Source: a virus
IMG/VR virus record: IMGVR_UViG_3300040751_001912
Coordinates: 1-28,113 of that record
DNA length: 28,113 nucleotides
Strand: one strand, 5' to 3'
The number at the start of each line of letters is the position of its first letter. Position 1 is the first letter of the stretch. Made by a program: the position numbers and the translations under genes. Of the stretch, positions 2 to 17,619 are shown piece by piece. The notes under the pieces were generated by a model, which saw only the letters and a list, made by a program, of their open reading frames with translations, was not told the DNA's origin and did not search any database.

Positions 2-3000
2 TATGGTGATTTTGCCAGCACGTCTATAACAAATTACATGAGAGCCAACCGTTTTGAAATGGGTGGCCCAAATGAATATATTACTCGTGCAACAGGAAAC
101 TATGGTACGATTAGAGTTGACGGTGTTTCAGGCTCTAGCGGTACTTGGGCTGGTTATGCTATCCGTGATGACTGGGTCTTTATGTCAAACGGAGCAAGTG
201 AAGCTGGTATCTACAATGATACAGATAATGAGTGGGCAATACTTGCAGCACGGAATTCTGATGTACAAATTTACTATAATGGCACATGGGAAGAGCGTTC
301 AAGATCTGGGTATATGGAAGCTCGTGGATCTTATCGTTCACCAGTATGGTATGACTCAAACAATACCACATATCGCATTGATGGTAACGGTACATCACGT
401 CTATTAACTCTACAAGTTGATAACGTAATTCAAGGTAGCGTTGATGGTTATTCGTATTACTTACTACGTGATGATAATCGTATTATTGCTCCAAATGAAG
501 ATCCAGCAGGGCGTATGCAATTTGGTTTCACTTCTTGGGGTAATAATAACACATCACCATATGCCGATTACTTACACTTGAGATCTTATACAGATTCCTC
601 AGGTGGTTCAGACAACCTTGTAATGTTCAAGAAGTCTGGAATTGGTATGCGCATTTGGCAACAGTCTTGGAACTCAGGTACTGCGTATTCTACATATAGA
701 AACGTTGCTGTTTATAATGAAAATCCAGATGGTGGAGGTAACAACCTATATGCTGCGCGGTATTATGATGAAGATAATACTTCTTATTATCTAGATCCAG
801 CATCCACATCACAAGTTAATACTATTCAGTTTAACGGCGGTGGTGTTGCTCAGTTTGCTACATCTTCTGGTAACATTCGTGGTTATATCCAAGCAACAGA
901 AACAAATGATGCTCACTTAATTATCGCAACATCTGGCGGCGAAGATATTTCATTCCGTGATGGCGGCTTGGGTGGTCAGTGGAACATGATCATTCGGGGT
1001 AATGGTGATGTTCTAACACTTGGAACTGCGTACGCTCAAAGATTTACAGATAGAGATAATGGTAACTATTACGGTGACTTTGCTGCTACATCTGTAACGA
1101 ATACGATCGATAACCGCGGTGAAATCTACAACGATGGATGGTTCCGTAACGACACAAACGGCCGCGGTTTGTATAACACTGCAACTGCAATGCACTGGTA
1201 TTCTGATAGTAGCGTACGTTGGAGAATGTATAGTACTGGTAACACAGTAGAAATGATGATGACCACATCAGGAAATACTACACGTGGTTATGTTTATGCA
1301 AACAACTCAAACGATATTGGTTTCTTAAATAACTCTGGTAACTGGATTTTCCGTACTCGACAGTCTTACGCTGAATTGTATGGTGATCTATATGCCAATA
1401 TTATGTACGATAGAAATAACTCCGGTTATTATGTAGATCCAGCGTCTACATCTAACTTGAATAGAGTTCAAGCAACTGGTTCCGGTAGTTTTATTCTTAC
1501 AGGATCTGTATCTAATAACGATAATAGAGGTCTATTCTTTGATGGAAGCAAAGGTGGTGATAACCAACCTTATGCTATCTATAGAGAAAATGGTGGCTGG
1601 TCTTATCCATACCCAGATTTAAGAATTGCATTCCACACTGGTATTAAGTTTGGTGCAAATGCTAGCTATCAAGGTATGCGTTTCTATACTGACTATAATA
1701 TGTCTGGTCAGGTTATGTCTATTAACAACGGCAGTGACCCGCTTGGTGGTAGTAACGTATATGTTAACAATAACTTACAAGCCGGTTCTTCATTAAGAGC
1801 ACCAATCTTCTACGATAGTAACAATACTAACTATCGCATGGATATGGATGCTACAAACTCTTCACGTTTCCGCGGTGTTCAATCTGAAACAATGGCTTAT
1901 ATGGGTCTTTCTGGTCAAACAAGATCAAGCAAAGAATACTATGCAGCTCGCCCACGTATTACTGGTGATAGTAACTATTGGACCGGATCTATAGGTTGGG
2001 GTCGGATTGATATGAACACGGTTGGCAACTGGGGTTCAGGCTTCTTTGATACATGGAGTAACCCGCCAAATCAGCCTTCCGGTACATCACACTGGGTTGG
2101 TGTCCAGGCATATCATTACACTAACGGTTCCTCTCGTTATGGTTGGCAATTGGCTGGTGGTCCAATTGAAAACTTACGCTTCCGTTCATCTTGGGCTGGC
2201 TATAGAACATGGAGAACAATTCCAGTTCTAAACGTTAACGATAATAACAACGGTGCGATGTATGCAAACATTTATTATGATACTGATAACACCGGTTTCT
2301 ACTGTGATCCATCAGGGTTCTCAAACCTAAACTCTGGTCTTCGTGCTACTGAAATTTATGCTCGTAACTGGTTCCGTAATGATAACTCATATGAAGGTTT
2401 GTATAACCAAGCAACAGGTGCTCACTGGTATTCATGGACAACGGGTTATTGGGCTGCAACATCTAATAGCAACAGCCATGCTATTAGTATTCAGATGCGC
2501 GGCGCGTTTAACGGTTCAATGAAGGGATGGGTCTACGGTGATGGTTCATGGCAAGGTTTCTTAAACTCTGCTGGCTCTTGGAAAATTAGATGTATTCACG
2601 TTGATGGTTACTCTCCTTCTATTCGTTTCGAAGAAACCGGTGATGAATCTTGGACTGGTAATCCTGGAAACGACGTTGGTAAGATTGAATATCACTCTAA
2701 CCGTTTCTATATTGTTGCCGGCGGTAACTCAAACCGTATTGTTCAATTCAGACGGGATGGCTCAGATAGATCATATGTTGATAACAACGGTCTGTATGTT
2801 GGTACTGCAACTTCTGCCCGCTGGGCTGACCTTGCAGAACGTTATTCTGCAGATGACATCTATGAGCCAGGAACAGTTATGGGTATTGATCTTGATGGTG
2901 ATGCTGAAATCACTATCTGGAGAGAAGGTTTGCCAATGGTTGGTGTAATTTCTACAAACCCAGCGGTGCAAATGAATGATATGGGTATTGAACCTGGAAG

Positions 3001-3232
3001 TAATTCTAAAGAAGCAAAAATGAATCCATTTATTGCTCTTAAAGGACGTATTCCATGTAAAGTAAGTGGTGAAGATGGTGCAGTTAAAAAGGGTATGTGG
3101 TTAATTCCTGATCCTGATGCAGTTGGTTTAGCTAAGGGAGTTCCATACGGTACTCCAGGTATAAATACATTTGACATTATAGGAATTGCTATTAGTAATA
3201 GTGAAAATGGAGAAGTGGAGGTTAAGGTCTAA
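2..3232 (+). CDS. Tail fibre protein, 5'-truncated by window edge
   Basis: Long fibre-like virion protein, probably part of the host-recognition apparatus. The reading frame is open from the first codon at position 2 and already reads YGDFASTSITNYM there, matching the internal YYGDFAATSVTNTI element near 1066. The gene therefore begins upstream, and the ATG at 38 is only an internal methionine. The protein is rich in Gly, Asn, Ser, Thr and Tyr and repeats a module of the form YDxxNTxYYxDPASTSxxN, with copies beginning near 350, 764, 1406, 1811 and 2276. The last 110 or so residues change character, from ADLAERYSADDIYEPGTVMG through VGVISTNPA. This resembles the C-terminal chaperone/peptidase-G2-like region of many phage fibre and spike proteins, which can help trimerise and sometimes cleaves itself. 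Fibre identity is well supported by composition and repeats; autoproteolysis is only a possibility. The stop shares a base with the next start (TAATG). Confidence 0.85.
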   Translation, partial: YGDFASTSITNYMRANRFEMGGPNEYITRATGNYGTIRVDGVSGSSGTWAGYAIRDDWVFMSNGASEAGIYNDTDNEWAILAARNSDVQIYYNGTWEERSRSGYMEARGSYRSPVWYDSNNTTYRIDGNGTSRLLTLQVDNVIQGSVDGYSYYLLRDDNRIIAPNEDPAGRMQFGFTSWGNNNTSPYADYLHLRSYTDSSGGSDNLVMFKKSGIGMRIWQQSWNSGTAYSTYRNVAVYNENPDGGGNNLYAARYYDEDNTSYYLDPASTSQVNTIQFNGGGVAQFATSSGNIRGYIQATETNDAHLIIATSGGEDISFRDGGLGGQWNMIIRGNGDVLTLGTAYAQRFTDRDNGNYYGDFAATSVTNTIDNRGEIYNDGWFRNDTNGRGLYNTATAMHWYSDSSVRWRMYSTGNTVEMMMTTSGNTTRGYVYANNSNDIGFLNNSGNWIFRTRQSYAELYGDLYANIMYDRNNSGYYVDPASTSNLNRVQATGSGSFILTGSVSNNDNRGLFFDGSKGGDNQPYAIYRENGGWSYPYPDLRIAFHTGIKFGANASYQGMRFYTDYNMSGQVMSINNGSDPLGGSNVYVNNNLQAGSSLRAPIFYDSNNTNYRMDMDATNSSRFRGVQSETMAYMGLSGQTRSSKEYYAARPRITGDSNYWTGSIGWGRIDMNTVGNWGSGFFDTWSNPPNQPSGTSHWVGVQAYHYTNGSSRYGWQLAGGPIENLRFRSSWAGYRTWRTIPVLNVNDNNNGAMYANIYYDTDNTGFYCDPSGFSNLNSGLRATEIYARNWFRNDNSYEGLYNQATGAHWYSWTTGYWAATSNSNSHAISIQMRGAFNGSMKGWVYGDGSWQGFLNSAGSWKIRCIHVDGYSPSIRFEETGDESWTGNPGNDVGKIEYHSNRFYIVAGGNSNRIVQFRRDGSDRSYVDNNGLYVGTATSARWADLAERYSADDIYEPGTVMGIDLDGDAEITIWREGLPMVGVISTNPAVQMNDMGIEPGSNSKEAKMNPFIALKGRIPCKVSGEDGAVKKGMWLIPDPDAVGLAKGVPYGTPGINTFDIIGIAISNSENGEVEVKV
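3160..3167 (+). promoter_or_regulatory. TATAAATA late-promoter-like box inside the fibre gene end
   Basis: An exact TATAAATA lies 65 bases before the start of the small gene at 3232, inside the last codons of the fibre gene. The spacing matches that of the intergenic late promoters in this window (about 30-75 bases to the ATG). In DNA this AT-rich several exact copies are expected by chance, so function is uncertain. Confidence 0.3.
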
Positions 3233-3792
3233 TGGTCTCAGCAGGAAGTATTATTGAAAACCAAGATGCGGTGAATACGTTCGATTCTATCGTACGTAAT
3301 TCCGCTTGGGCGCAGCAAGTATATCATTACTATAACAGACACGGAACGATTGACGGCGTAACTGCAGGAACAGAACATTATTCATTTGCAAACCCTAGTT
3401 CTGGTGCTTCTGTTGCTGGTATTGGTAATAACAATACTATTATTTACGCATCAACTGTTTATAATCACTTGAATGCAGCAACGTATAACCTAACGCATAT
3501 TCGCCAAGCACGGGCAAACTTTTATCGTAACCAAAACGGCAGTTGGGTTTATCGCGGATCTATTGGTCCACGAGTTACTGTTCGCCCAACAAGTGTTCGC
3601 CAAGGTGTTCCTAACGTTAATAATGCTGGTGTTTATGCCGGCAATATTATGTATGCGTCACAGTACAATCAATATTGTACTAACTTATATAATCAGTGGA
3701 ATAGTTTAAAAAATAACAGATCAGATTTTAACGTTTATTATTGCCACACGTCATGCCACTCATCATGTCACTCATCACGTGGTCGTAGATAA
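3232..3792 (+). CDS. Fibre-associated hypothetical protein with C-terminal Cys-His repeat
   Basis: A 186-residue protein whose ATG overlaps the fibre stop by one base, so it is translationally coupled to the fibre. A GGAGG lies 10 bases upstream. The N-terminal half looks helical (for example SAWAQQVYHYYNRH); the middle is Gly/Ala/Asn/Tyr-rich. The final 16 residues are CHTSCHSSCHSSRGRR, three tandem C-H-S/T-S units followed by a basic tail. The gene context suggests a virion, fibre-tip or fibre-assembly protein. The repeated Cys-His pairs could bind metal, as His/Cys residues do in T4 fibre tips, or could be a modification site for the enzymes encoded 2.5 kb downstream. Both are inference. 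I do not recognise a named family with certainty. Confidence 0.75.
   Translation: MVSAGSIIENQDAVNTFDSIVRNSAWAQQVYHYYNRHGTIDGVTAGTEHYSFANPSSGASVAGIGNNNTIIYASTVYNHLNAATYNLTHIRQARANFYRNQNGSWVYRGSIGPRVTVRPTSVRQGVPNVNNAGVYAGNIMYASQYNQYCTNLYNQWNSLKNNRSDFNVYYCHTSCHSSCHSSRGRR
3742..3777 (+). repeat. Three tandem 12-base repeats encoding CH(T/S)S
   Basis: The three units are tgccacacgtca, tgccactcatca and tgtcactcatca. They differ mainly at synonymous or near-synonymous positions. The protein pattern is conserved while third positions vary, which points to selection on the Cys-His-Ser-Ser peptide rather than a very recent slippage event. Confidence 0.8.
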
Positions 3793-3804
3793 AGGATTTA
3801 TATT

Positions 3805-5064
3805 ATGGATTTAAAATATTATGAAGAAAAATTTCATGAAGCTGGTTTAACAATTCAATCTGCTGCCGCAGAATATACAAGAAAAGGTGATTTATCACTT
3901 TTGATGTACAAAAAACTGTCTGATGTTGGAGTTACTGCAGACGAAGTAAAGCAACTCGCGAAACATTTAGAAGAAAATGATGTAGAGATTACTGAAGAAG
4001 AAAAGAAAAAGCGGCAAAACGAAAGAATGAATAAAGTTATTCGTTCGACAGATACCGACAGCGTTTATAACGAAGAATCAACCACTGGTAAAAGTGTTGC
4101 TGAAATCGCAGAGTTTCAAGGGCGCGCAAAAGAAGAAACCGAAGAAGCTCCAGCACCAAAAGAAAAGAAAATTATTCACACAACATGTCCTCTCCCGATG
4201 GAGGTTTTAAAACAGTATTTTGAAGATAAAGAAAATACTGCTTTTGTTGTTAATTATCGTGGTGGTAAATTAGACGCTGATGCTTTAATGATTTATTTAA
4301 GTAACTTGAATCTTGACGCAGATTTTGATGAAGAAACGTATAATGATCGCGATGCTTTAAAAGAGCTTGTTGCTGCTTATATGAAAACAACAACATCCTT
4401 AGTTGATATTGAGCAATTAGCTAGAGAAGCTTTGGCGATTTGTTGTTATCATAGAAATGTTATTAAACCAGATCATATTTTTGGTCTTAATACTATAGAT
4501 GAAGATGAGTTAGATGATCTAGAAGAATGTGATGATCCTTTTACTCATTTAAGATATTTCGAAAAACTAGGTAGAGCAGAAGATTTTATTCAAGAAAATT
4601 TAGATACAGTAGAACGTTGGTGTACAATGTTAGATTCTTCTGGTGTCTATAATTTGCATTGTTTAGGAAATCCAGAATTTGATCAGTTTATTGAACAAAC
4701 TTTTGAAACAATTGATGATCCAGATTATGTAGGTATTAACTATGTAAACTTATATTCTTTAAGTTGGATTGGATATTATATTGGTTGTATTGCTCCATTA
4801 GGAGAACCTGGATCTAATCCAAAATTCTTTACAAATCAGTTTAATGAATATAGATTCAAAGGCAAAAATATGAATCATTATTTTAACACTGAAGCAAATA
4901 TTCTTTCTATTCAAACACAAGTTATGGCTTCTGGTGAGCATGATGCACTGATGGAAGAATGGGGTGAAGGCGTTGAAGTTGAACTTCCAGATTTAACAAA
5001 TCTTGAAAGACCAGCATCACAAACAGAAGAACCACAAGTAGAAAATTCCGAGGAAGAAAAATAA
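3805..5064 (+). CDS. Hypothetical acidic protein (419 aa)
   Basis: Unrecognised protein, preceded by AAAGGA 9 bases before the ATG. The first 80 residues are helical and charged (KQLAKHLEENDVEITEEEKKKRQ). A Glu/Lys/Pro-rich linker follows at about residues 105-130. A larger, apparently globular domain of about 260 residues then contains CCYHRN near residue 213 and DELDDLEECDD near 234. The C-terminus is a disordered acidic tail (EEPQVENSEEEK). No signal peptide or clear membrane segment is visible. It sits between the fibre pair and another unknown of similar size that starts at the very next base, so the two are probably co-translated. A role in the virion, in fibre assembly, or as substrate or partner of the downstream radical SAM enzymes are all open. 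Confidence 0.8.
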   Translation: MDLKYYEEKFHEAGLTIQSAAAEYTRKGDLSLLMYKKLSDVGVTADEVKQLAKHLEENDVEITEEEKKKRQNERMNKVIRSTDTDSVYNEESTTGKSVAEIAEFQGRAKEETEEAPAPKEKKIIHTTCPLPMEVLKQYFEDKENTAFVVNYRGGKLDADALMIYLSNLNLDADFDEETYNDRDALKELVAAYMKTTTSLVDIEQLAREALAICCYHRNVIKPDHIFGLNTIDEDELDDLEECDDPFTHLRYFEKLGRAEDFIQENLDTVERWCTMLDSSGVYNLHCLGNPEFDQFIEQTFETIDDPDYVGINYVNLYSLSWIGYYIGCIAPLGEPGSNPKFFTNQFNEYRFKGKNMNHYFNTEANILSIQTQVMASGEHDALMEEWGEGVEVELPDLTNLERPASQTEEPQVENSEEEK

Positions 5065-6303
5065 ATGGCATTTAATTTATTTGGGAAAGTATATGTATCT
5101 CCTGACTGGGCTTATGATAATGGATACAATAGATGTATTTTTTCGGAATGGAGAAACCAAGCAGCATACACTAGTTATGATGTATTAGATAGTCCTGGCT
5201 TTGAAGCCGAGGTATTACTATCTACTGCTTCAATCACAGATGTTATTGGTGACGGTACTTCTGCAAATACTGAACCTGTTATGGATGGTGAGTCTAATAC
5301 TGCACTATCTTTTCCATCAGATGCATATAATGGTCAATACGAAAGTATTCCTCATTTCTTAAAACATCTTTATGACGAAGGATGGGATGGCAGATTATAT
5401 TCTGATGATGTTTCTTACAATATTTTATTTTTCGTATGGCTTAAACTTGCATTTCCAAATATAGATGATGATATAGCTTTTATTTTGTATAATATTATTA
5501 AACAAAGAGAAGCTTTAATTTTTCCTGATAATACAGATGCAATAGGTTTTATTGTACCACGAATTACAGATAAAAACAATTCTTCTATTTTAAGTAAAGC
5601 AGAATTTTTGCAAGAAAAAGCAGAGTTTGATGCAGCAGATACCGCGACTCCAGAATTCTATACTGAATTTAGAAATTTAGTTAAAGATGATTTTTCTATA
5701 GAAATTCAAATGGCGTCATATCTTTCTGGAAATTATCCTATACATACACTTACTGACAAATTCAGAAGAGTTGGCTCGAAAATGGTTTATAGCCATGTAT
5801 ATGCACTAAGAGATTGGTTGCGAGAAAATATTATGTCTGAAAAAGTTAAATCTATGACAGGTATTTCTCTAAACTGGGATGACACAAATTGGGAATCAAC
5901 ATTAAGATCTCAATCTGCACAGATGGATTTTTTATTTAAATCAGATGAAGATGCTATTAGAAAATCGTGGTCCTTTAGAGAACAGATGATTGAAGAAGCC
6001 TGGTATTGGATTGATTGGGTTGTAAATAATACTTCCGATGATGATATAAATAATTATGAATTATGGAATATTAGACAAGCTTGTCTAAATAATTCAAACT
6101 GGAAAAATATTAATAGCGATGATATTAACGCTCGTTATGCTGCTACTGCTGCTCTTATGGAAGAAGATATTAATAGTCATAATGTAAGTGGCTTAGCAAT
6201 TGAACAATTAAAAGAAAAAGTTAATAGCTTTTGGATAGAATACATATATCAGCTTAAGAGGGCTGGAGATACTACTACACTCGCAAAATTAAGTCACACA
6301 TAA
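5065..6303 (+). CDS. Hypothetical protein (412 aa)
   Basis: Unrecognised. It starts immediately after the stop of the previous gene, with GAGGAAG about 9 bases upstream inside that gene's last codons. It opens MAFNLFGKVYVSPDWAYDNG, followed by a polar region to about residue 95. The rest is aromatic-rich and probably helical (ISYNILFFVWLK-like segment near 125, then YILYNIIKQREA). Trp and Asp/Asn pairs are frequent in the second half (DDTNWES, WYWIDWVVNN). The hydrophobic segments look like buried helices rather than membrane spans. Its end lies only 9 bases before the first radical SAM gene, so it may be read through into that operon. A virion or fibre-assembly protein is the most natural guess from position, but nothing in the sequence proves it. 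Confidence 0.8.
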   Translation: MAFNLFGKVYVSPDWAYDNGYNRCIFSEWRNQAAYTSYDVLDSPGFEAEVLLSTASITDVIGDGTSANTEPVMDGESNTALSFPSDAYNGQYESIPHFLKHLYDEGWDGRLYSDDVSYNILFFVWLKLAFPNIDDDIAFILYNIIKQREALIFPDNTDAIGFIVPRITDKNNSSILSKAEFLQEKAEFDAADTATPEFYTEFRNLVKDDFSIEIQMASYLSGNYPIHTLTDKFRRVGSKMVYSHVYALRDWLRENIMSEKVKSMTGISLNWDDTNWESTLRSQSAQMDFLFKSDEDAIRKSWSFREQMIEEAWYWIDWVVNNTSDDDINNYELWNIRQACLNNSNWKNINSDDINARYAATAALMEEDINSHNVSGLAIEQLKEKVNSFWIEYIYQLKRAGDTTTLAKLSHT

Positions 6304-6312
6304 AGGTTTATA

Positions 6313-7437
6313 ATGATTAATATTATTGATGTCACTGAAACACGTGACAAGTGGGGCCAAACAGACACGGCCGCAAACTTAATATTTGAAAAGAGAAATA
6401 AATCGTGTGAGATTGTTATTATTCTTTTCGAATATTGTAATTTTGCATGTACCTTTTGTCCACAAAATCATAGCAGCAAAGATGGAATGGATTATGAATC
6501 TATTGTTTCTAAAGCTGAATTGATTAATGAATACATAAATCAAAATAATTTTGCTACAGATTTTGTTATTCGTTTAATTGGCGGAGAGCCATTTAACGAC
6601 GAAATTATTGTTGGTTCTAATCTATTAAAAGCGTATCGAGAATTAGCAGATAGAGTTAGAGCTGGCGCAAATTTAAATGGAAGACCGTGCGATTTTATAT
6701 GGATTTCCAATTTTAGCATGATCGAATGCAGAAATGATGTTCTAAAATTTATGGAAGAACAAAAAGACGATACTCAATTTGTCGTTTCATATGATCTTAA
6801 AGGCAGATTCAATAAAAAGAATCTAGAAACATTTAAAGAAAATATTGAAGTTTTTGCGCCGTATATCCGCAATATCAACTCAGTAATTACAAAACAAAAC
6901 ATCGAAGCATTACTTGCTGGAGATGAATATTACGACTACTTATATAGTAGATTTGATTATTCTTGGGATCAATATATTAAAGGTGATAATTTAAATAATT
7001 ATGCTATTCCTTTAGAGTCTCAAGTATTAGAATTTTATAAACTTTTAGCAGATAAATATCCAAAAGTAGAGTATATTGTGCCTTTCTTAAGAAAGCCAGA
7101 TACCGCTACTACAATGCATACTCTATGTTCTAGAGGTAATGGAGCTGCTATTGATTGGGATAATAAAATTATTCCAGAAGGTTGTGTCGGTTCTCATTAT
7201 CTTAGAAAATTTAAAGCACCGGCCTTTGTGGGTCACAATGGTCCAGACAATTTTATTGATAATACTTTAACAAGTTTTCTTGATAAATATAATTGTCATT
7301 CGTGTGAATATTATCAACGATGTCCTATGATGTGTTTCTCTGGTATTAAAGCAGGAAACATGATTCAAGATATGGATACATGTATCAATAAAGAATTATT
7401 TAAATATGTAGACTCGAAGAGGAAGAGTAATGGATAA
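6313..7437 (+). CDS. Radical SAM/SPASM protein A
   Basis: Radical S-adenosylmethionine enzyme of 374 residues. The core [4Fe-4S] cluster motif CX3CX2C is C42, C46, C49 (YCNFACTFCPQNH), followed by the SAM-binding GGEP near residue 92. The C-terminus carries a full SPASM-type cysteine set: C272 and C291, then C328, C331, C337, C341 (CX2CX5CX3C) and C357. These would hold two auxiliary Fe-S clusters. SPASM enzymes typically modify peptides or proteins (sulfatase maturation, RiPP cross-links, epimers) or occasionally small molecules. The gene has AAAGG 6 bases before its ATG, opens the coupled operon, and overlaps the next gene by 8 bases. The N-terminal 35 residues ahead of the motif are longer than in the sister proteins here. 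Family assignment is firm; the substrate is unknown. Confidence 0.93.
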   Translation: MINIIDVTETRDKWGQTDTAANLIFEKRNKSCEIVIILFEYCNFACTFCPQNHSSKDGMDYESIVSKAELINEYINQNNFATDFVIRLIGGEPFNDEIIVGSNLLKAYRELADRVRAGANLNGRPCDFIWISNFSMIECRNDVLKFMEEQKDDTQFVVSYDLKGRFNKKNLETFKENIEVFAPYIRNINSVITKQNIEALLAGDEYYDYLYSRFDYSWDQYIKGDNLNNYAIPLESQVLEFYKLLADKYPKVEYIVPFLRKPDTATTMHTLCSRGNGAAIDWDNKIIPEGCVGSHYLRKFKAPAFVGHNGPDNFIDNTLTSFLDKYNCHSCEYYQRCPMMCFSGIKAGNMIQDMDTCINKELFKYVDSKRKSNG

Positions 7438-9379
7438 AAAATTAAGATTAGCTTTCATGTCACCCCCTCACGCAGACTGGCAAACTCCTGCGAATTTAAC
7501 ATGGATGCAACTCGAAAGTCATTACAACCACGAGGGGAAACATCCTGATCGTGTTGAATTTATACCCGCAACTTATAAATTTGACGTTTACAAAAATTTC
7601 CAAGAAATTAAAGACGACATGGACCAAGGAATTGGCGCAGATGTATATTGCTTTGGTTCATATATTTGGAATTATCATATGTGCGATGAAGTTGCAAAGC
7701 TTGTTAAAGAACAAAATCCAAATGCAATTTGTGTAATTGGAGGTCCGCATATTGGTAAAAATGAACCAAAACTTATGGCGCAAAGATTAGAACTTTATGA
7801 ATATATTTGTCAAACAACTAAACCAGGCGAAATCTTTATGAATTCTTTACTTGATGGTTATTTTGATAATAATTGTCAATGGCCAGCGCACGACGATGTA
7901 ATTTGGGAATGGCGTTCAAACAAAAAGCAGGCTCTTGATATTAGTAAACAAGATTATTCTGTATATGAAGAACACATGGATTATCTTAAAGAAATGAGAG
8001 AGTGGGCTCGTACTCAGGTACTTGAGCCTTATATGGCTCTTGAGAGTACACGCGGGTGTCCGTTTAAATGCTCATTCTGTGAATGGGGTGGAGGCATTGG
8101 TACCAAAATTTATAGAAAGCAACTAGACATTTATAAAAGAGATGTTGAAGCCCTCAAAGCTGCTGGGTTCCGAGATGCATATCTTACTGATGCAAACTTT
8201 GGCGCATTCTTAGAACGTGATATTGAAATTTTTGATTGGACATTTAAGAATGGATTTAACTTAACAGATATTTCAACATTTAAGGCTCGTGATATTAATA
8301 GAAGAAAACAACTTATCGATGCTTGGTTTGATACATTAGGAACCGGCGAAGAAAAACACTCAGAAGTATTTGTGCCAGAGCAAGGTTCTCATGCATTGTT
8401 CTTTATGGGTTCTGCAGAAAATGCTGCTATGGGAACCACCATTCATGTATTTAACGAACAAAATTATAGTCGTGGTATGATGGACGATCATAATCCTTGG
8501 CAACGAGATGAAGAAGATGACGAAAGAGCTAGACAAGCTGCAGAAGGTGAAGCGCTTTATATTTCGGTTGTTCCGACCGTAAGTATTCAAAGTATTAGTA
8601 AAGAAGCTATGAAAGTAGTTAATCGTGTTGATTTAGATCTTGAAGATAAGCTTGAACTTGCACGACATATTAATAAGCGTTGTAACAAAGAAGGTTATCC
8701 AAAGCCACCTGTAGAATTAATTCTTGGAATGCCGGGATCTACTATTGATGATTTCTATAATGAATATGAAATTTATGATAACTTTAAATCATATGGTTCA
8801 TGGAGACATGACTATATGTTCCTACCAGATTCTGAACTAACAGATCCAGCATATATTGAAAAATATAAAATCGAAACAGTAGAATGCTGGACTGATGTTG
8901 TAGAAGAAGGTGGAGCAAATAATAGATATGGTATGTATCGTGGTTTAAGATCATACTTTAAAACTATTGCTTCGTGTTATTCATTTACAAGAGAAGAAAT
9001 GCATGAAATGTGGTTTATGAATGTTTGTGGTAATATTCTTTTACAACGGCATTATGACACATTTAGAGACGTTTTAACACCTGGTCAATATTGCAGATTG
9101 TGTTATCAAATTATTCGCGACTGTATTCCAGGGTTTGATATTGTACATGAAAATATTATTGATATTTTAAATCCAGATACTCCTCCGCGTGGTCTAAAAA
9201 GAATTATCGGTAATAAATCAAGACTAGAATGTATTATGGAACTTGTAACTGGTGATAACGAAACCATTCTTTTAAACGAATTATTTGTTAGAGCGTTTAC
9301 TCCAGAATGGGCCGACAAAACTAAAAATATCGTTGCTCCTACAGAATCAGCAAATGAGATTAAATATGCAATTGCCTAA
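7430..9379 (+). CDS. Radical SAM protein with cobalamin-binding-like N-terminal domain
   Basis: A 649-residue protein with class B/B12-type radical SAM architecture. The first 190 or so residues look like a Rossmann B12-binding domain: an N-terminal LAFMSPPHADW strand and loop, GADVYCFGSYIWN near 70 and CVIGGPHIG near 100-108. The classical base-off DxHxxG signature is not seen. The radical SAM core follows, with C210, C214, C217 (RGCPFKCSFCEWGGG), TDANFG, and ELILGMPGSTIDDF in the second half of the barrel. An acidic stretch (QRDEEDDERARQAAEGE) interrupts the core near residues 360-380 and looks like an insertion. The C-terminal 180 residues are unassigned. Family members methylate unactivated carbon or phosphorus, or rearrange rings, and some do not use B12 for methyl transfer. 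It overlaps both neighbours by 8 and 14 bases. Confidence 0.88.
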   Translation: MDKKLRLAFMSPPHADWQTPANLTWMQLESHYNHEGKHPDRVEFIPATYKFDVYKNFQEIKDDMDQGIGADVYCFGSYIWNYHMCDEVAKLVKEQNPNAICVIGGPHIGKNEPKLMAQRLELYEYICQTTKPGEIFMNSLLDGYFDNNCQWPAHDDVIWEWRSNKKQALDISKQDYSVYEEHMDYLKEMREWARTQVLEPYMALESTRGCPFKCSFCEWGGGIGTKIYRKQLDIYKRDVEALKAAGFRDAYLTDANFGAFLERDIEIFDWTFKNGFNLTDISTFKARDINRRKQLIDAWFDTLGTGEEKHSEVFVPEQGSHALFFMGSAENAAMGTTIHVFNEQNYSRGMMDDHNPWQRDEEDDERARQAAEGEALYISVVPTVSIQSISKEAMKVVNRVDLDLEDKLELARHINKRCNKEGYPKPPVELILGMPGSTIDDFYNEYEIYDNFKSYGSWRHDYMFLPDSELTDPAYIEKYKIETVECWTDVVEEGGANNRYGMYRGLRSYFKTIASCYSFTREEMHEMWFMNVCGNILLQRHYDTFRDVLTPGQYCRLCYQIIRDCIPGFDIVHENIIDILNPDTPPRGLKRIIGNKSRLECIMELVTGDNETILLNELFVRAFTPEWADKTKNIVAPTESANEIKYAIA

Positions 9380-9827
9380 TCTAAGATGGACCTATAATGA
9401 TTTTGAAGATTATGTATTAAGTTATGATGCTTATATGTATGATCGCACTTTATATATTGACAATCGTGGAAAAGATGTTAAAATAGTATCAGATGATTAT
9501 AATGAGTATTTAGCAAAAGTACAAGTAAAATTAGCAGAACAGCACGATACTATAAAAGTTGAAGGTATTGAAAAAATTGCTGGATGGGAAGACGGAACAA
9601 TTCACGCATTTAGATATTGGGAAAATTCTCCATCTTTTGAAGAACATACAGATCCAGTAGACGTGATACTGCAAGTACAAGAAGGTGCTAAATTAATCGA
9701 AGTAAATGGTATCGAAAAATATATAAGTGAAGAAGAAGTGTGGTGGATTCCAGCAAATACTCCACACAAAGCTTTAAATACAGTTGAAGGATTGATGTTT
9801 AGTTATGGCGTGTCCGATACAGGATAA
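9366..9827 (+). CDS. Cupin-domain protein
   Basis: A 153-residue protein; the frame extends upstream to 9285, but the ATG at 9366 gives the usual 14-base overlap and removes a Leu/Gln-rich stretch that is only the shadow of the preceding gene. The C-terminal 75 residues fit a single cupin barrel: FEEHTDPVDVILQVQEG (H94 and E106 as candidate ligands), a beta-hairpin LIEVNGIEKYISEEE, then WWIPANTPHKAL with H134. Only one His is obvious in the first motif, so metal binding is likely but not certain. Cupins can be dioxygenases, isomerases or sugar-binding domains. Its position inside a radical SAM operon suggests an accessory or modifying role on the same substrate. It overlaps the next gene by 23 bases. 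Confidence 0.75.
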   Translation: MQLPNLRWTYNDFEDYVLSYDAYMYDRTLYIDNRGKDVKIVSDDYNEYLAKVQVKLAEQHDTIKVEGIEKIAGWEDGTIHAFRYWENSPSFEEHTDPVDVILQVQEGAKLIEVNGIEKYISEEEVWWIPANTPHKALNTVEGLMFSYGVSDTG

Positions 9828-10851
9828 TATTACTGTTTATGTTAAAACAACCGAGACGTGCAATCTAAATTGTTTTCATTGTTTCACAAACGGTACTAAT
9901 GGAGCTAAAGTTTATTTTGACCCAGTGGCTACAGCTAACTGGGTCAATCAGCTCGATAAAGGTGATAACAGAGTTCACTTTGAATATCATGGTGGTGAGC
10001 CTATGCTTGCTCCTACTAAAGACCTATTTGATTTTTTCTTTAGAACATTTGATGTTTGGGAAAATAGAGCAACATATGGTATTACAACAAATCTCACTTA
10101 CAAATTAACAGAAGACAGATTAGACTTTTTTGATCATGTTATGGATGATGGTCGAATTGGTACTTCTTGGGATCCTACAATTCGCTTCGCAAATGAAAAA
10201 CAACGAAAGCTTTGGGAAGATAACGTTAAAGAATTAGTAAGTAAAGGTTTCCATTTAAAAGCTTTTATATCATTATCTAAAGACGTTGTCAATATGTCAC
10301 CAAGGTTTATTACAGATTATATGATGAATCTTGGTATTAAAGAACTTTCTTGGGAACGTATTACTGGAAATGGTAATGCTTTATTATATGGTGATAAGTT
10401 ATATCCAACAAATAAAGAGTTGCAAGACTTCTTTATGAGATGTCATACAGAATGTGCAGATTTAAGAGGAGAATTTGAAGATGTCTTCATGGAAACAGTC
10501 TATAACAAATTTGAAAAAGGACTCTTACACCAAGGAACGTTTTGCAGAGACTGTGAACAAAAATTATTTACGATTAATGCGACTGGTACTATTGCTGGCT
10601 GCCCTAACGCTGCTCCTACCGATTATTATGGCCATATTAATCAATCAGTAGATGAAGTAATAAATACACCTAAGAGGGGAGAAGTTATAGCAAAAGAACT
10701 CTTCTTAAGAGATCCTCGCTGTTATACTTGCCCAGTCTTTGGATATTGCGGATCTGATTGCCACCAACTTGAATGGCAAGACGATGTTTGTCCAGCCCCT
10801 AAAACTTTGATGATGGAATTATTGAATGGAATTAATCATAAAGCCCACTGA
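9805..10851 (+). CDS. Radical SAM/SPASM protein B (sulfatase-maturase-like cysteine pattern)
   Basis: A 348-residue radical SAM enzyme. The core motif is at C19, C23, C26 (TCNLNCFHCF), and HGGEP near residue 72 is the SAM-binding strand. The SPASM region is textbook: C250-X10-G261-X4-C266, then C306, C309, C315, C319 (CX2CX5CX3C) and C329, with an extra C247. This is the pattern of anaerobic sulfatase-maturating enzymes and many RiPP maturases, which use two auxiliary [4Fe-4S] clusters when acting on peptides. No precursor peptide gene is adjacent. The start at 9805 lies inside the cupin gene (23-base overlap), and there is no strong ribosome site, which is consistent with coupling. Catalytic residues are intact, so an active enzyme is expected; the substrate is unknown. 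Confidence 0.94.
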   Translation: MACPIQDNITVYVKTTETCNLNCFHCFTNGTNGAKVYFDPVATANWVNQLDKGDNRVHFEYHGGEPMLAPTKDLFDFFFRTFDVWENRATYGITTNLTYKLTEDRLDFFDHVMDDGRIGTSWDPTIRFANEKQRKLWEDNVKELVSKGFHLKAFISLSKDVVNMSPRFITDYMMNLGIKELSWERITGNGNALLYGDKLYPTNKELQDFFMRCHTECADLRGEFEDVFMETVYNKFEKGLLHQGTFCRDCEQKLFTINATGTIAGCPNAAPTDYYGHINQSVDEVINTPKRGEVIAKELFLRDPRCYTCPVFGYCGSDCHQLEWQDDVCPAPKTLMMELLNGINHKAH

Positions 10852-11878
10852 GGCATGTAACTTTAAATGTACTTTCTGTTCATCAACTAACATTGATCCA
10901 AAGAAAGCAAAGTTACTTGATCACGATTATATTTTTAAATTTCTAAAACGTTATCCTGAAACTAACACCATTATTGTAAATGGTGGAGATCCACTTATGG
11001 TGGAACCTGATTACTATTGGAAAATTATTGATCATCTTGATGAACATAATTATCGTGCTAATATTAGTTTTACTACTAATCTTTGGCCTTTTGTAATTAA
11101 ACCACAAAAATGGATTGATTTATTTCGTCATGAACGTATGGGAATTTGTACAAGTTTCCAATACGGTAAAGGTAGATTAAAAGGTGATTTTACTATTTTT
11201 ACTGAAAAGGATTTTTGGAGAGCATCTGATATGATGCTTGATCTCGTTGGTTATAGACCAGACTTTATTGCTGTAATGACAGATGAAGACGCACCAGATG
11301 CTATTCGTAATGTGGAACTTGCAAAAGAAATGAATGTCGAATGTAAGTTAAATTATGCTATGGCTTCTGGAGTACAAGGATCCACATATCGTTTAAGTAA
11401 GATCTATGAAACATATATAGAAATATACGATAGAGGTCTTTGGAAATGGGAATACAATACAAAACAAATGATGAAAAGGCTGCATGGTAATGCGACGTCT
11501 TGCCCGCAAAATAGAAGGTGTGATGAACATATCCGCGCTTTTAATCCTGGAGGTGATTATTATTCTTGCGGCTCTTTCGGTGATGATGGCGATTATCCTA
11601 TCGATTTTGAATATGAATTAAATGGTGGTAAAGCAACACCTTTGCAAGATGATTTTAATATTCAAACAATGAAAAACGCTTGTTGGACTTGCCCAATGTT
11701 TGAAATTTGTAATGGTTGCAAAAAGACTGTACGTGATATGAAACGTGAAGGTATTACTGAAGCTCATTGTAAACATATGAAAACTTTAGCACCTCGCATT
11801 CTTGAAATTAACGGGTTAGATCCTAATAGTGTAACCCCATATGTGAATGAGGAAGAAGATGTTCTCTGTATCAATTAA
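10826..11878 (+). CDS. Radical SAM/SPASM protein C
   Basis: A 350-residue radical SAM protein that begins almost directly with its barrel: MELIIKPTEACNFKCTFC, with C11, C15, C18. NGGDP near residue 54 is the SAM-binding strand. The auxiliary-cluster region has C232-X10-G-X4-C248, then C286, C289, C295, C298 and C315. The fourth cysteine spacing is CX2C where canonical SPASM has CX3C. C226 is an extra candidate. The core and all seven auxiliary positions are therefore present with slightly altered spacing. It overlaps the previous gene by 26 bases and the next by 20. Its general similarity to protein B suggests family expansion by duplication, but the two are too diverged for recent copying. 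Enzyme class is firm; the reaction is unknown. Confidence 0.93.
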   Translation: MELIIKPTEACNFKCTFCSSTNIDPKKAKLLDHDYIFKFLKRYPETNTIIVNGGDPLMVEPDYYWKIIDHLDEHNYRANISFTTNLWPFVIKPQKWIDLFRHERMGICTSFQYGKGRLKGDFTIFTEKDFWRASDMMLDLVGYRPDFIAVMTDEDAPDAIRNVELAKEMNVECKLNYAMASGVQGSTYRLSKIYETYIEIYDRGLWKWEYNTKQMMKRLHGNATSCPQNRRCDEHIRAFNPGGDYYSCGSFGDDGDYPIDFEYELNGGKATPLQDDFNIQTMKNACWTCPMFEICNGCKKTVRDMKREGITEAHCKHMKTLAPRILEINGLDPNSVTPYVNEEEDVLCIN

Positions 11879-12782
11879 TCCCACCTACTTTTGTAATTTT
11901 AATTGCGATTTTTGTTATTTAAGCAAAGAGCAATTACGTGATAGACAAACAGCTTCTATCGAAACGATTATGAAACGATTAAATGAAATAAATGAAACAA
12001 TTACACATATAGATCTATACGGTGGAGAGGTTGGATTATTACAAGACGATTATCTAAATGAATTAATTGATAGTATTAAAGCAGAATATAATCCAACAAT
12101 TTCTATTATTACAAATCTTTCTGCAATCCGTGAAGTATTTTTAAGACCAGATATTGATTTATCTGTGTCATATGATTTTGATGCACGAGAAAAAGAAATG
12201 ACTGTATTTACTAATATGTTAAAGCTGAACAGGCCGTTTTCAGTATTAACATTAGCATCAGAAAAAGTTATTAATAATGATGTAGATTATATGATTAATA
12301 TGTTTAATTCTTTGACTAATTTAATTGCTGTAGAGATTAAACCATTTAGTTCTACTACACACCGTACACAATATGTTACTGATTTGCAATATGAAGAGTT
12401 TATTAAAGAGTGGATTGATAGTCCAATTCCAAAAAATTGGTTGTTTATTAATCAAGATAAAATTGAGGAGTGCCTAGATGGAAATTATAATGCTTTTAGC
12501 GATAATCATGTTTATATTACTCCTAGCGGTAATTTTGCTGTACTGGATTTTGATTTATTGGGAAATGAAAGTTTTACAGAGCTCGATACTTTCGATGCAT
12601 ATCTATCTTGGGCAAATAGAGAAAAGCAGTCAGGAGTCAGTGACATCTGCAAACAATGTAAATACTTCGGCGGATGCTTAACGGAGCATTATAAGTATGT
12701 CGCGTTTGATCCAAAAATAAATGGTTGTAACGGTTATTTTAATCTACTAGAATGGTACAATGAAGAGCCAGTACGAGTATAG
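11859..12782 (+). CDS. Radical SAM protein D with reduced SPASM region
   Basis: A 307-residue radical SAM protein. I chose the ATG at 11859 because GAGG (11849-11852) sits 6 bases before it; an in-frame ATG at 11847 would add only MRKK and has no ribosome site. The core motif is C12, C16, C19 (FCNFNCDFCYL), and YGGEVG near residue 53 replaces GGEP. The C-terminal region is depleted: the CX10GX4C element is replaced by HVYITPSGNFAVLD, which has no cysteine. Of the CX2CX5CX3C...C element, C264, C267, C273 and C290 remain, but the fourth position is H277. At most one auxiliary cluster is therefore likely. Such twitch-like forms may bind substrate differently from full SPASM enzymes or act as partner subunits. 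It overlaps both neighbours by 20 and 23 bases. Confidence 0.9.
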   Translation: MFSVSINPTYFCNFNCDFCYLSKEQLRDRQTASIETIMKRLNEINETITHIDLYGGEVGLLQDDYLNELIDSIKAEYNPTISIITNLSAIREVFLRPDIDLSVSYDFDAREKEMTVFTNMLKLNRPFSVLTLASEKVINNDVDYMINMFNSLTNLIAVEIKPFSSTTHRTQYVTDLQYEEFIKEWIDSPIPKNWLFINQDKIEECLDGNYNAFSDNHVYITPSGNFAVLDFDLLGNESFTELDTFDAYLSWANREKQSGVSDICKQCKYFGGCLTEHYKYVAFDPKINGCNGYFNLLEWYNEEPVRV

Positions 12783-13506
12783 AGTTCAATATGAACAGCA
12801 ATATAGTAGAAATCTTGAGCCAGAATTAAGAACTGCTGAAGATGGTCACAGATATGCTATGTTTGTAAAAGGAAATACTTTTAATGTTGGTGGAAGAACA
12901 TATATATTCAAAGATCATTTAGGACAATATGTTAGTACTTTTGTAAGTCAATATTCTGATATTATAGATAATAATTTAGAGCCGGGCGTTAAAGATGCTG
13001 TACTTGCCTTACACGAAAAAGGTTATTTAACTTATACATCTTGCCAAGGACATGATGATTCTAAACACAGATATATTGGTGTAGTATTCAATACTAATGA
13101 GCAAAAAAGAAAATTTATCAGAGAAGTAAACAAACTCAAGTGTGATATATATTGGTATGACCACGCAATAAATACGGTTGAAAGACCACAAACAAGCATA
13201 CCTTGGTGGTCAGACGCTATAAAATTGCATATTGTTTATAATGATAATTCTTTTGCTAATTCGGCAGTTGTTGACAGAAGAGATAAACCATACACAGATG
13301 AAGAATTAACTAAATTTTGGAATATTCAAATGTGTAGAAACTACAATTATTACGAATCAATAATTTTGTGTTTTGGTTATCCTATGGTTGAAAAAAACTT
13401 GTGGGAAAAAATTAAAAAGATATTTTTCTATAATCATTATAAAGTAACTAGTGCATATTTTAATTTTTTAAATAAAGTCAATCAATTACCGGAGTATGAG
13501 AATTAA
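12760..13506 (+). CDS. Hypothetical protein with SCxGH motif (possibly TYW3-like)
   Basis: A 248-residue protein, coupled to the preceding radical SAM gene by a 23-base overlap. Around residues 78-110 it has a helix (VKDAVLALHEKG) followed by YLTYTSCQGHDDSKHRYIGVVF, giving S94-C95-Q96-G97-H98. A TxSCxG(H/R) turn after such a helix is reminiscent of the TYW3 (wybutosine-synthesis) fold and of uncharacterised phage proteins sharing this element. Full-length TYW3 similarity is not evident, so this is a hint and not a call. The C-terminal half is aromatic-rich (IQMCRNYNYYESIILCFGY) and basic near its end. Wybutosine synthesis includes a radical SAM step (TYW1), but the radical SAM proteins here lack the flavodoxin domain of eukaryotic TYW1 and look SPASM-type. 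Confidence 0.75.
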   Translation: MKSQYEYRVQYEQQYSRNLEPELRTAEDGHRYAMFVKGNTFNVGGRTYIFKDHLGQYVSTFVSQYSDIIDNNLEPGVKDAVLALHEKGYLTYTSCQGHDDSKHRYIGVVFNTNEQKRKFIREVNKLKCDIYWYDHAINTVERPQTSIPWWSDAIKLHIVYNDNSFANSAVVDRRDKPYTDEELTKFWNIQMCRNYNYYESIILCFGYPMVEKNLWEKIKKIFFYNHYKVTSAYFNFLNKVNQLPEYEN

Positions 13507-13507
13507 A

Positions 13508-13918
13508 ATGAAAGAATGGAAAGTTAGACAGCAGTATTTCGATATGATGAATCCAGATGCAGACTGGAAAGATGATTTAAACAAAGTAGATATCGTAGAA
13601 GTTGATGCTATGGATATTATTCCCGAAGCAATTCGACATTTTGAAGAGCATGTACCAGAATGGGTTTATCCATCTAAGTCTTATGTGGTAGCAATTTGTT
13701 ATGCACATTGGATATCTCAAGATTTCGACGAAGATTTTTACGAAACATTAGCAGATCCAGAATTACTTCCCCACGATCCATATTTTGTTCCATATGAAGA
13801 TGATAAACAAACATACGATGAAATTATTGAGGCAGTAACTCCAATTGATATGATTGGTATGGTACCAGATATTTACGAATATTATAGAGAAGAAATTCTG
13901 GAGTCTTTGATTGAATGA
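13508..13918 (+). CDS. Hypothetical acidic protein (136 aa)
   Basis: Small acidic protein beginning MKEWKVRQQYFDMMNPDADW. I favour the ATG at 13508, one base after the upstream stop, with GAG 7 bases before it. An in-frame ATG at 13496 would add MRIK, but its GGAG is only one base away and too close to act. The protein is rich in Asp, Glu, Tyr and Pro (DADWKDDLNKVDIVEVDAMD; FVPYEDDKQTYDEI) with no cysteine cluster and no recognised motif. It has one Cys, at about residue 64. It ends in a 4-base ATGA overlap with the first oxygenase gene, so it belongs to the same operon. Possible roles are a small partner protein or substrate carrier for the neighbouring enzymes. No family is recognised. Confidence 0.75.
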   Translation: MKEWKVRQQYFDMMNPDADWKDDLNKVDIVEVDAMDIIPEAIRHFEEHVPEWVYPSKSYVVAICYAHWISQDFDEDFYETLADPELLPHDPYFVPYEDDKQTYDEIIEAVTPIDMIGMVPDIYEYYREEILESLIE

Positions 13919-14427
13919 ATTATGAAAAATTACAAATAGACGGTTATGACCATTTTAACGACCCACGCGTTTTTACTTATTTAGAATGGTTTTATAAAAC
14001 TCCTTTTATGATTACTTATCAAGGAGTAAAATATCCGATTACTTATTGGCCTATAGGTGTATGGCTTTTAAGAATGACGCAGAAAAAAATAGACGAATTA
14101 ATATTATCAGATGAGCTTTGCACATTTGGTAATGTGGATGCTTGGAGAGGTATAGATAATAAAACTGATGTGTGGCATACAGATCACATTGAAGGATCTA
14201 ATCTTGCATTTCTCATGTATCTTACAGATATGGATGAATCTACTGGTGGTGGTATCCAAATTAAAAGAGCAAATTCATCCAATTATGCTACAATATATCC
14301 TAAGAAATATGATATTGTTGTTTTGAATCAAAACGGCGATCAATTTAGACATAAAGTTATAAACTTAAAACAACCAATAAATAGAGATGTAGCAAATATA
14401 GAATTTAATATTATGGAAAGGCTATAA
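13915..14427 (+). CDS. 2OG-Fe(II) oxygenase (prolyl-4-hydroxylase-like)
   Basis: A 170-residue double-stranded beta-helix dioxygenase. The facial triad is complete: H88 and D90 in VWHTDHIEG and H146 in FRHKVINL, with R157 eleven residues later as the 2-oxoglutarate carboxylate anchor. LAFLMYLTDMDESTGGGIQI is the typical strand pair after the first motif. Proteins of this superfamily hydroxylate proline, lysine or other residues, or small molecules, using O2, 2-oxoglutarate and ferrous iron. The protein is short for the family and has no signal peptide, so it acts in the host cytoplasm. It is joined to the previous gene by ATGA and separated from the next by one base. It is the only one of the three local oxygenases with a classical HxD. 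Confidence 0.9.
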   Translation: MNYEKLQIDGYDHFNDPRVFTYLEWFYKTPFMITYQGVKYPITYWPIGVWLLRMTQKKIDELILSDELCTFGNVDAWRGIDNKTDVWHTDHIEGSNLAFLMYLTDMDESTGGGIQIKRANSSNYATIYPKKYDIVVLNQNGDQFRHKVINLKQPINRDVANIEFNIMERL

Positions 14428-14428
14428 C

Positions 14429-15142
14429 ATGGATAATACAAATATTATAAAAATCCATCCTACACATATTCTAGTTAAAGAAATTCCATTTACAGACGAA
14501 GAAATGGATGAGCTGCGAGTTTGTGCAAAAGCAACGTGGACAGGCTATTACGAGCAAGGATTAGATAGTCATGACTATCAATGTAATTCCGATCCTTTTC
14601 CTCTTTTTACAAAAGAAAATTTAAATATTTTTCCAATTTTAGGTAAATTAAAAAATGAATTTGAAAAAGGCTTTTATGAATTGGCCATTTCTCACGAGGG
14701 AAATACATTAACAAGAGAACAAATTTCACACATGGTTGCTCAACAGCATGGGCAAATGCCAATTATGCAACAAGGTGATCTAATTGCGTTACATACACAT
14801 CCTGGATCATTAGCTTATGGTATTTTTTATTTAGATGACGTTGATAATGAAAAAGATGGTGGTATACTTCAATTGTGGGATCCTTCATTCCATGTGAATG
14901 CTGGCATGAGAAATCCACAAATTTATGAAGTGGATACTGTAGCTAGGAGATTAGTAATTGTGCCAACATACATTTGGCATAATGTTACACAATATTATGG
15001 AAAATCTGAAAGAATTTCTGTTATTTGTAATTTGTCAATTCATCCAGATTTTGAAAGAGTTTTAACATATAGTGGTGTACAGGAAAACGGTGCATTTACT
15101 GACAAAACAAAAGGTTCTGGATTTGATCCAGCGGCGGTGTAA
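14429..15142 (+). CDS. Putative 2OG-Fe(II) oxygenase (PF13759-like), second copy
   Basis: A 237-residue beta-helix protein. The first motif is LHTHPGSLAYGIFYL with H122 and H124, followed by DGGILQLWDPS. The distal ligand is H184 in IVPTYIWHNVTQ, and R195 sits eleven residues further on, matching the 2-oxoglutarate anchor position. The HxH form with a following GxxxYL strand is usual in the PF13759 type of putative 2OG oxygenase found in many marine phages and bacteria. Whether the second His or a later acidic residue such as D151 completes the metal site cannot be settled here. AAAGG precedes the start by about 8 bases. A 35-residue C-terminal tail after the barrel is Gly/Thr/Lys-rich and probably flexible. 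Confidence 0.86.
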   Translation: MDNTNIIKIHPTHILVKEIPFTDEEMDELRVCAKATWTGYYEQGLDSHDYQCNSDPFPLFTKENLNIFPILGKLKNEFEKGFYELAISHEGNTLTREQISHMVAQQHGQMPIMQQGDLIALHTHPGSLAYGIFYLDDVDNEKDGGILQLWDPSFHVNAGMRNPQIYEVDTVARRLVIVPTYIWHNVTQYYGKSERISVICNLSIHPDFERVLTYSGVQENGAFTDKTKGSGFDPAAV

Positions 15143-15143
15143 T

Positions 15144-16203: not shown

Positions 16204-16219
16204 GTAGAGGAATTCTATC

Positions 16220-17615: not shown

Positions 17616-17619
17616 TTAC

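Follow-up and report, generated by a model that had tools for sequence, protein, structure and literature searches.

We propose that a fibre-associated structural protein of a T4-like phage carries, in its C-terminal [Cys-His-Xaa-Ser]3-RGRR, the substrate of a radical SAM cassette. We consider this reading probable, with the modification, its chemistry, the location in the virion and the role at the host all inferred; what was computed is a conserved tag, its genetic linkage to the enzymes in both directions, the kinship of one enzyme (rSAM-A) to peptide maturases, and the fibre genes nearby. The window, that is, the whole stretch of viral DNA that we analysed (28,113 nucleotides), is a T4-like phage fragment with a terminase at 24968 and a sheath gene at 26648, both assigned from translations; Rfam gave zero matches in it. 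Its tag protein (TAG) and cassette genes are listed in Table 1.

Table 1. Tag protein, putative modification site and cassette genes of the window.
Feature	Coordinates	Strand	Basis or remark
Tail-fibre-like protein, 5' end outside window	2..3232	+	Repeats such as YYDxDNTSYYLDP; groups with fibre-like genes preceding other cassettes
TAG protein, 186 aa	3232..3792	+	Variable N-terminal body, conserved C-terminal repeat
Three C-H-x-S units CHTS-CHSS-CHSS, putative modification site	3742..3777	+	C-H-x-S-C-H-x-S-C-H invariant in family
Terminal RGRR; R-x-R-R end near-invariant, then stop	3778..3789	+	Family alignment
Partner protein, phrog_20767	3805..5064	+	Family in 39/41 mapped regions, usually directly after TAG
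Unknown 412-aa protein	5065..6303	+	Position of 364-aa cassette protein; not clustered by BLAST
Radical SAM enzyme	6313..7437	+	phrog_1802 E 1e-27; PF04055 weak
B12-binding radical SAM enzyme, KedN5-like methyltransferase type	7430..9379	+	NF033712 E 4e-27; PF02310, PF04055
JmjC-like cupin, HxD...H iron triad	9285..9827	+	True start probably somewhat downstream
rSAM-A, SPASM radical SAM enzyme tracking tag	9805..10851	+	Motifs and co-occurrence
Radical SAM enzyme, nearest models anSME and DynA	10826..11878	+	PF04055 over cut-off
Radical SAM enzyme	11847..12782	+	PF04055 over cut-off
Unknown 248-aa cassette protein	12760..13506	+	Cluster 20
Unknown 140-aa cassette protein	13496..13918	+	Cluster 8; family in 26/41 regions
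2OG-Fe(II) oxygenase-like protein	13915..14427	+	PF13640 below cut-off; cluster 7
2OG-Fe(II) oxygenase	14429..15142	+	PF13759 over cut-off
2OG-Fe(II) oxygenase	15072..15704	+	PF13759 over cut-off

The C-terminus of TAG is CHTSCHSSCHSSRGRR, and its residues before the stop read ...DFNVYYCHTSCHSSCHSSRGRR-stop; the three C-H-x-S units and the RGRR that the preliminary description had read at the end of this protein are exactly as claimed. Searched as DNA, the two-unit pattern has two matches in the window, both within the repeat, and none in 100 dinucleotide-preserving shuffles. At the protein level TAG matches a PHROGs family of unknown function, phrog_35144, over residues 66-186, up to the last residue; Pfam holds no model for TAG. 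The fold is only moderately predicted (pLDDT 69), and searching with the structure model found no PDB match and, among viral models, only the protein's own family.

We scanned 2.9 million viral contigs for the pattern TGYCAYNNNTCNTGYCAYNNNTCNTGYCAY, and it was present in 72. The motif forms the end of a protein in about 44 of these; in nearly all of them the first Cys opens a stretch of 16 residues that ends at the stop, with the consensus CH[AST]SCH[ST]SCH[GS]S-R-[GS]-R-R. The other 28 were chance readings rather than conserved ORF ends and served as controls, unmatched for virus type. The 43 scored tag proteins, including that of the window, form one BLAST family, in whose alignment the only invariant positions are Met1 and C-H-x-S-C-H-x-S-C-H, with R-x-R-R nearly so; the remainder of the proteins shares 17-34% identity with the window protein. 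More widely, the tag takes the form [CHxS]3-R-[G/S/A]-R-R-stop on otherwise divergent proteins of 125-310 aa, and with a second scan and enzyme-led searches the distinct viral contexts bearing it now number about 140. Homology searching failed here: neither the window protein nor a marine TAG (L110) matched any isolate phage by tblastn, and a relatives scan with the window TAG protein was equally empty. We attribute these blanks to the divergence of the body and to the BLAST low-complexity filter, which apparently masked the tag (matches stop at residue 170 of 186). The relatives were recovered instead by the tag DNA pattern and an enzyme profile.

The preliminary description had also argued from third-codon variation that selection acts on the peptide. 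Within the window this is weak: the units (TGC CAC ACG TCA / TGC CAC TCA TCA / TGT CAC TCA TCA) are almost identical, with a single synonymous change. The argument does stand across 151 distinct homologous tag DNAs, where Cys is a mixture of TGT and TGC, the conserved Ser uses both AGY and TCN, and Arg uses both AGR and CGN, while the residues stay constant. The constancy of Cys, His and Arg in this set was partly imposed by the selection pattern; that of the Ser positions in the tags found through the enzyme was not. Since Ser remains constant despite the use of both codon classes, and the Cys, His and Arg codons vary, we infer selection on the peptide and not on the DNA. The variable tag positions are mostly occupied by Ser, Ala, Thr and Gly.

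Some relatives depart from the standard end. A 240-kb virus encodes a long array, CHTSCHSSCHSNVPVCHSSCHSNVPV...CHSARGRR (L350, 7831-8515), adjoining a cupin and rSAM-A. In another TAG (L049, also L103; 1-1239, minus strand) Hint (intein-like) domains directly follow the tag and replace RGRR, and in a third (L015, also L083; 9128-10072, minus strand) a C-terminal Peptidase_S74 chaperone follows four Cys-His units. Tags followed by Hint or S74 have no RGRR end but retain the repeat, with radical SAM genes still present. Hint and S74 are self-processing domains, and either could free or activate a C-terminal tag; no protease that would release a tag core, as from a RiPP precursor, was seen, and two TAGs have Hint or S74 after the tag. 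The long array and the Hint and S74 variants may reflect a substrate core, possibly repeated.

The tag is strictly linked to radical SAM genes. Radical_SAM genes were found in all 45 true-tag records of the first set, which go down to 7 kb in length, mostly with three to six such genes each, and in 48 of 50 further tag records, for a total of 93 of 95. In each of the two remaining records the tag gene has as its immediate neighbour a gene for a CxxxCxxC protein that has diverged too far for the Pfam model to recognise. None of the 28 controls, which bear only the chance pattern, has a radical SAM gene. The tag records include close relatives, so these counts are not of independent events. We take the viral records L011 and L047 to be Ralstonia phages RSF1 and RSL2. 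For the reverse direction we took the best 80 rSAM-A relatives in viral contigs and scanned 46 whole records for the tag. It was present in 29. The 17 without it break off short of the position that the tag has in their group, or at the very edge of that position; every record covering it (29/29) has the tag.

Isolate phages agree. Seven records of six phages contain rSAM-A, namely Burkholderia phages FLC6, FLC8 and vB_BgluM-SURPRISE13, Agrobacterium phage Atu_ph07 (two records), Sinorhizobium phage Phosso and Pseudomonas phage pPa_SNUABM_DT01, and a tag-protein gene adjoins it in all of them. The complete tag was read in FLC6, Phosso, DT01 and Atu_ph07; for FLC8 and SURPRISE13 the protein alignment reaches only as far as the masked tag.

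The position of the tag relative to rSAM-A follows three layouts. In one the tag lies downstream at 1.6 kb; in a second, to which the window belongs, it lies upstream by 5-6 kb; and in the third, tandem pairs of tag genes are found on the opposite strand, 11-13 kb downstream. In one marine T4-like group (L209, L211, L213) two tandem TAG genes of about 130 aa and the radical SAM genes are on opposite strands and separated by 11-13 kb, and a third tag lies elsewhere in the genome of G116 (L212). In many marine phages the tag genes, about 12 kb away and on the other strand, are therefore not in one operon with the radical SAM genes. That the tag and rSAM-A stay together after the operon breaks argues against mere hitchhiking. 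The preliminary description took the repeat for a possible target of the SPASM radical SAM enzymes encoded nearby, with position alone to link them; co-occurrence in both directions now supports this idea, with modification itself unproven. Wide occurrence of the repeat without any radical SAM gene would have spoken against it; we looked for this and did not see it.

The enzyme that tracks the tag is itself of a fitting type. In an alignment of 32 rSAM-A sequences the CxxxCxxC cysteines (C19, C23, C26) and those of a SPASM CX2CX5CX3C motif (C306, C309, C315, C319) are invariant, and rSAM-A passes the SPASM model TIGR04085 (31.1 bits, cut-off 27). Members of this alignment match several peptide-maturase models: PapB (32/32), DynA (31), anSME (31), CbpB (28) and HxsB (27). 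Scores are far below the cut-offs where these are shown (34.8 bits against a cut-off of 370 for HxsB, which is not passed), and we therefore view rSAM-A as a new branch of peptide maturases and a member of none of the named families. On the substrate side, a few tag proteins show weak matches to the radical SAM target models FibroRumin and CXXX repeat.

We mapped the cassette in 41 regions of up to 20 kb each. Usually a fibre protein comes first, followed in turn by the cupin, rSAM-A, TAG, the partner (about 238 aa), a 364-aa protein, a radical SAM enzyme, further oxygenases, often a B12-binding radical SAM enzyme, two radical SAM enzymes and small proteins. rSAM-A directly precedes TAG in 34 of the 41 regions and the partner directly follows it in 32. 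The window cassette has the same parts in a different order, with TAG 6 kb from rSAM-A; the start of its 412-aa protein, MAFNLFGKVYVS, resembles MFHLFSKVYVT by eye. In the cupin the H, D and H of the triad are invariant in 33 sequences; a relative (L110) reaches 24.1 bits to JmjC_2 against a cut-off of 22, and the window cupin matches only Cupin_2, weakly. A partner relative was modelled with high confidence (m6fba0c021968, L110:8688-9407; pLDDT 91), with no significant PDB match; the second-look list includes chains of anSME, SuiB and CteB, with Z values of 2.3-3.2, and a protein missing from that list carries no weight. These values give a faint hint that the partner is a degenerate, cofactor-less radical SAM barrel, and are too weak to claim it.

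Other genes lie in or near the cassettes. Inside the cassette of Burkholderia jumbo phages are two genes annotated as dihydrofolate reductase (gp77-gp78 of FLC6; L118 17695-18908), whose products perhaps act as reductases in the tag pathway and not in nucleotide metabolism. At 15784-16549 the window encodes a tandem pair of small proteins that are related to each other, of which the first has DUF7936. After the cassette, at 16581-19613, come a 344-aa protein, a 413-aa protein that is FkbM-methyltransferase-like by eye, and a cytidylyltransferase-cupin fusion; the genes at 18831-19613 are of sugar-nucleotide type, and the whole segment suggests sugar or glycerol-phosphate decoration.

The tag is not confined to viruses. 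In a scan of 84,980 species genomes we found the same tag with the same enzymes on Bdellovibrionota chromosomes, amid housekeeping genes; several other hits look like phage contigs binned with bacteria. Among 241 Bdellovibrionota genomes the tag profile was found in eight and rSAM-A in 13, with all eight falling within the 13. In four of the five remaining rSAM-A genomes a variant of the tag lies close to rSAM-A or directly next to it, with the sequence CHGNFPPPCHGSRGRR in three and CNSNFICHSNCYTPPPKSRSRR in one; no tag was present in the 9 kb examined of the fifth (G277). Two of the tag-profile genomes carry the tags CHSSHSSHSSHSSRGRR and CHSNHCSHSNHGSRGRR (L374 4309-4918 and L375 11560-12169), which stand between the Cys-His and the pure His-Xaa-Ser types and approach HxsA repeats; uninterrupted HxS repeats occur in one Bdellovibrionota genome.

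Fibre-like genes with a Peptidase_S74 chaperone adjoin the bacterial cassettes, and two of the four tested have a pilin N-methylation motif (the S74 fibre loci are L355 12653-14323, L357 9627-11528, L360 13504-15148 and L371 425-2110). The bacterial S74 fibre gene is followed by a protein of about 200 aa ending in [R/G]HWVKVK or similar. The label "fibre-associated", which had been given to TAG on position alone, is strengthened by these fibre genes adjoining the cassette in phages and bacteria, and it follows that in both settings the tag occurs with fibres that could meet another cell. In Atu_ph07, TAG is gp170, directly beside the radical SAM protein gp171, and the capsid protein is gp215 in the same numbering. 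Virion mass spectrometry of this phage is reported to assign most virion proteins to clusters CDS 31-76, 170-215 and 284-329 (PMC6102473). One cluster starts exactly at CDS 170, suggesting that gp170 was detected; this is inferred from the cluster boundary.

How the tag might be made and used can be sketched. Attachment to the fibre would fall to the variable N-terminal body, which bears the tag. Cys, His and Ser side chains would be altered by rSAM-A together with the cassette's further radical SAM enzymes, its partner protein and its iron hydroxylases, with the modified residues expected on the TAG C-terminus CHSSCHTSCHGS. The simplest chemistry would be cross-links from the regularly spaced Cys or His together with hydroxylation, and methylation may be added where the B12 enzyme is present. 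The phage tail fibre would then end in a compact tip that may bind metal; in the predatory bacteria the same tip would sit on a pilin-anchored fibre, and in either setting it would be used on the envelope of host or prey. The data are compatible with a Cys- or His-centred cross-link to Ser or to the backbone, with hydroxylation, and also with metal binding before or after modification. PapB cross-links Cys to Asp or Glu acceptors (PMC9413430). A thioether of that type we reject for the tag, where neither Asp nor Glu is among the commonest residues at any position; thioether linkage as such remains possible. We more tentatively suggest, as an idea that deserves serious consideration without our being able to call it probable, that phages and predatory bacteria share a dedicated multi-enzyme pathway (three to six radical SAM enzymes with JmjC-like and other iron oxygenases) by which a fibre protein's C-terminal Cys-His-Xaa-Ser repeat becomes a chemically new tip that engages the envelope of another cell.

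A substrate role for the tag has no direct evidence of modification behind it, and no known chemistry fits the motif exactly. Also counting against it are the relatedness of the records and the unmatched controls, the marine tag genes that lie outside the operon, a TAG fold of moderate prediction quality without known relatives, a virion location inferred from a cluster boundary, and the tagless 9 kb of G277. An objection might be that the tag is an unmodified metal-binding tip, with three Cys-His pairs per chain holding Zn or Fe, and that the cassette acts on another fibre protein or on a glycan. Histidine-rich fibre tips do bind metal and Cys-His pairs are good metal ligands, so the repeat suits such a function on general grounds, and the sugar-nucleotide type genes of the window fit a cassette acting elsewhere. 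We nevertheless find this explanation unlikely, because it accounts neither for the strict two-way linkage with rSAM-A, which is kept when the genes move apart, nor for the placement of TAG inside a maturase cassette, and because variants exist in which Cys is lost and His-Xaa-Ser is kept. Still less can be said for a sorting or assembly signal, in which RGRR and Cys-His would be bound by the partner as chaperone while the radical SAM enzymes make a small molecule. The partner is almost always beside TAG and the R-x-R-R end is almost fixed, as such a signal would have it; however, rSAM-A resembles protein and peptide maturases rather than small-molecule enzymes, and the tags followed by Hint or S74 keep the repeat and the radical SAM genes without RGRR.

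The preliminary description had named formylglycine as a possible chemistry, and a single-residue oxidation of this or another kind at the last C-H-x-S-R by an anSME-like enzyme would yield a reactive aldehyde tip. One radical SAM enzyme of the window (10826-11878) and most rSAM-A relatives do match the anSME model, and the last Cys has an Arg at position +4, the spacing found in sulfatase sites. The sulfatase formylglycine site, C/S-x-P/A-x-R, has Pro or Ala two residues after the Cys, whereas in the 151 tags that position is never Pro and rarely Ala, with Gly, Ser and Thr prevailing; the core Pro/Ala is thus missing from a tag that reads C-H-[G/S/T]-S-R. Three conserved units and several enzymes would also go unexplained, and we have accordingly dropped formylglycine as a realistic candidate. 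We are equally disinclined to accept plain hitchhiking, in which TAG and the radical SAM genes would be unrelated and merely spread as one accessory module. Such a module does occur in T4-like phages, jumbo phages and bacterial chromosomes, but the linkage outlives rearrangement, since different groups have TAG adjacent to rSAM-A, upstream of it by 5-6 kb, or on the opposite strand at 11-13 kb downstream, and in the window itself TAG lies 6 kb from rSAM-A.

In a literature search that excluded subscription papers and preprints, we found no name for the tag and nothing tying it to phage radical SAM genes. Such genes have been noted repeatedly: one T4-like marine genome has 12 (PMC5332604), the eight of Aeromonas phage 332-Vera were called highly unusual (PMC12390700), and those of Ralstonia and Burkholderia jumbo phages went unexplained (PMC5468394, PMC8066314, PMC11898562). 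They have so far been listed as Fe-S metabolism or as oddities (PMC5332604, PMC12390700, PMC5468394, PMC8066314, PMC11898562). For the tag-bearing phages these genes now have a specific, testable candidate substrate, and FLC6, SURPRISE13 and Atu_ph07 offer culturable systems. The prediction is a new type of protein modification on the virus particle, such that viruses may bear a chemically modified tip so far undescribed, and the enzymes may supply new Cys, His and Ser chemistry. The finding connects phage fibres with the surface fibres of predatory bacteria; if true, such maturation of a virion part would, as far as could be found, be without precedent, and two unrelated kinds of bacterial predator would use one device.

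Several known systems invite comparison. Fibre proteins that trimerise with a C-terminal Peptidase_S74 chaperone include those of the endosialidase type and the Bdellovibrio MAT fibres; S74 occurs in one TAG, and the bacterial cassettes have it in the neighbouring fibre gene, whereas most TAGs lack it and both the tag and its link to radical SAM genes are foreign to that family. The CXXX-repeat and FibroRumin targets (TIGR04115, TIGR04117, TIGR04135) share with the tag a Cys at every fourth residue and a radical SAM/SPASM maturase. Those targets are free small peptides, while the tag repeat ends a larger fibre-linked protein and has His after each Cys. PapB (NF047865) is the best model shared by rSAM-A (best E 3e-16, in all 32 members), although with scores far under its 340-bit cut-off. 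The anSMEs (4K36-4K39) likewise combine radical SAM and SPASM domains, and the rSAM-A profile matches the solved anSME, but the tag lacks the C-x-Pro/Ala-x-Arg site.

The His-Xaa-Ser system (models TIGR03976-TIGR03979) consists of the substrate HxsA and the radical SAM maturases HxsB and HxsC (Haft and Basu 2011, via PMC9062424). The tag resembles it in having short HxS units (as C-HxS, C-HxS, C-HxS) and several radical SAM enzymes, in the matches of rSAM-A to HxsB (27/32), and in the pure HxS repeats of Bdellovibrionota variants. It differs in that the HxsA repeats, HRSHSSHRSHSSHSSHYS, are internal and followed by a peptidoglycan-binding-like domain (named by eye), and in that their units have no Cys and no R-x-R-R end; none of the aligned TAG proteins matched the HxsA model TIGR03979 at E 1. 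With modification itself unproven, we conclude from these comparisons that the tag stands outside the Hxs, PapB and anSME substrate families and works like a radical-SAM-matured peptide.
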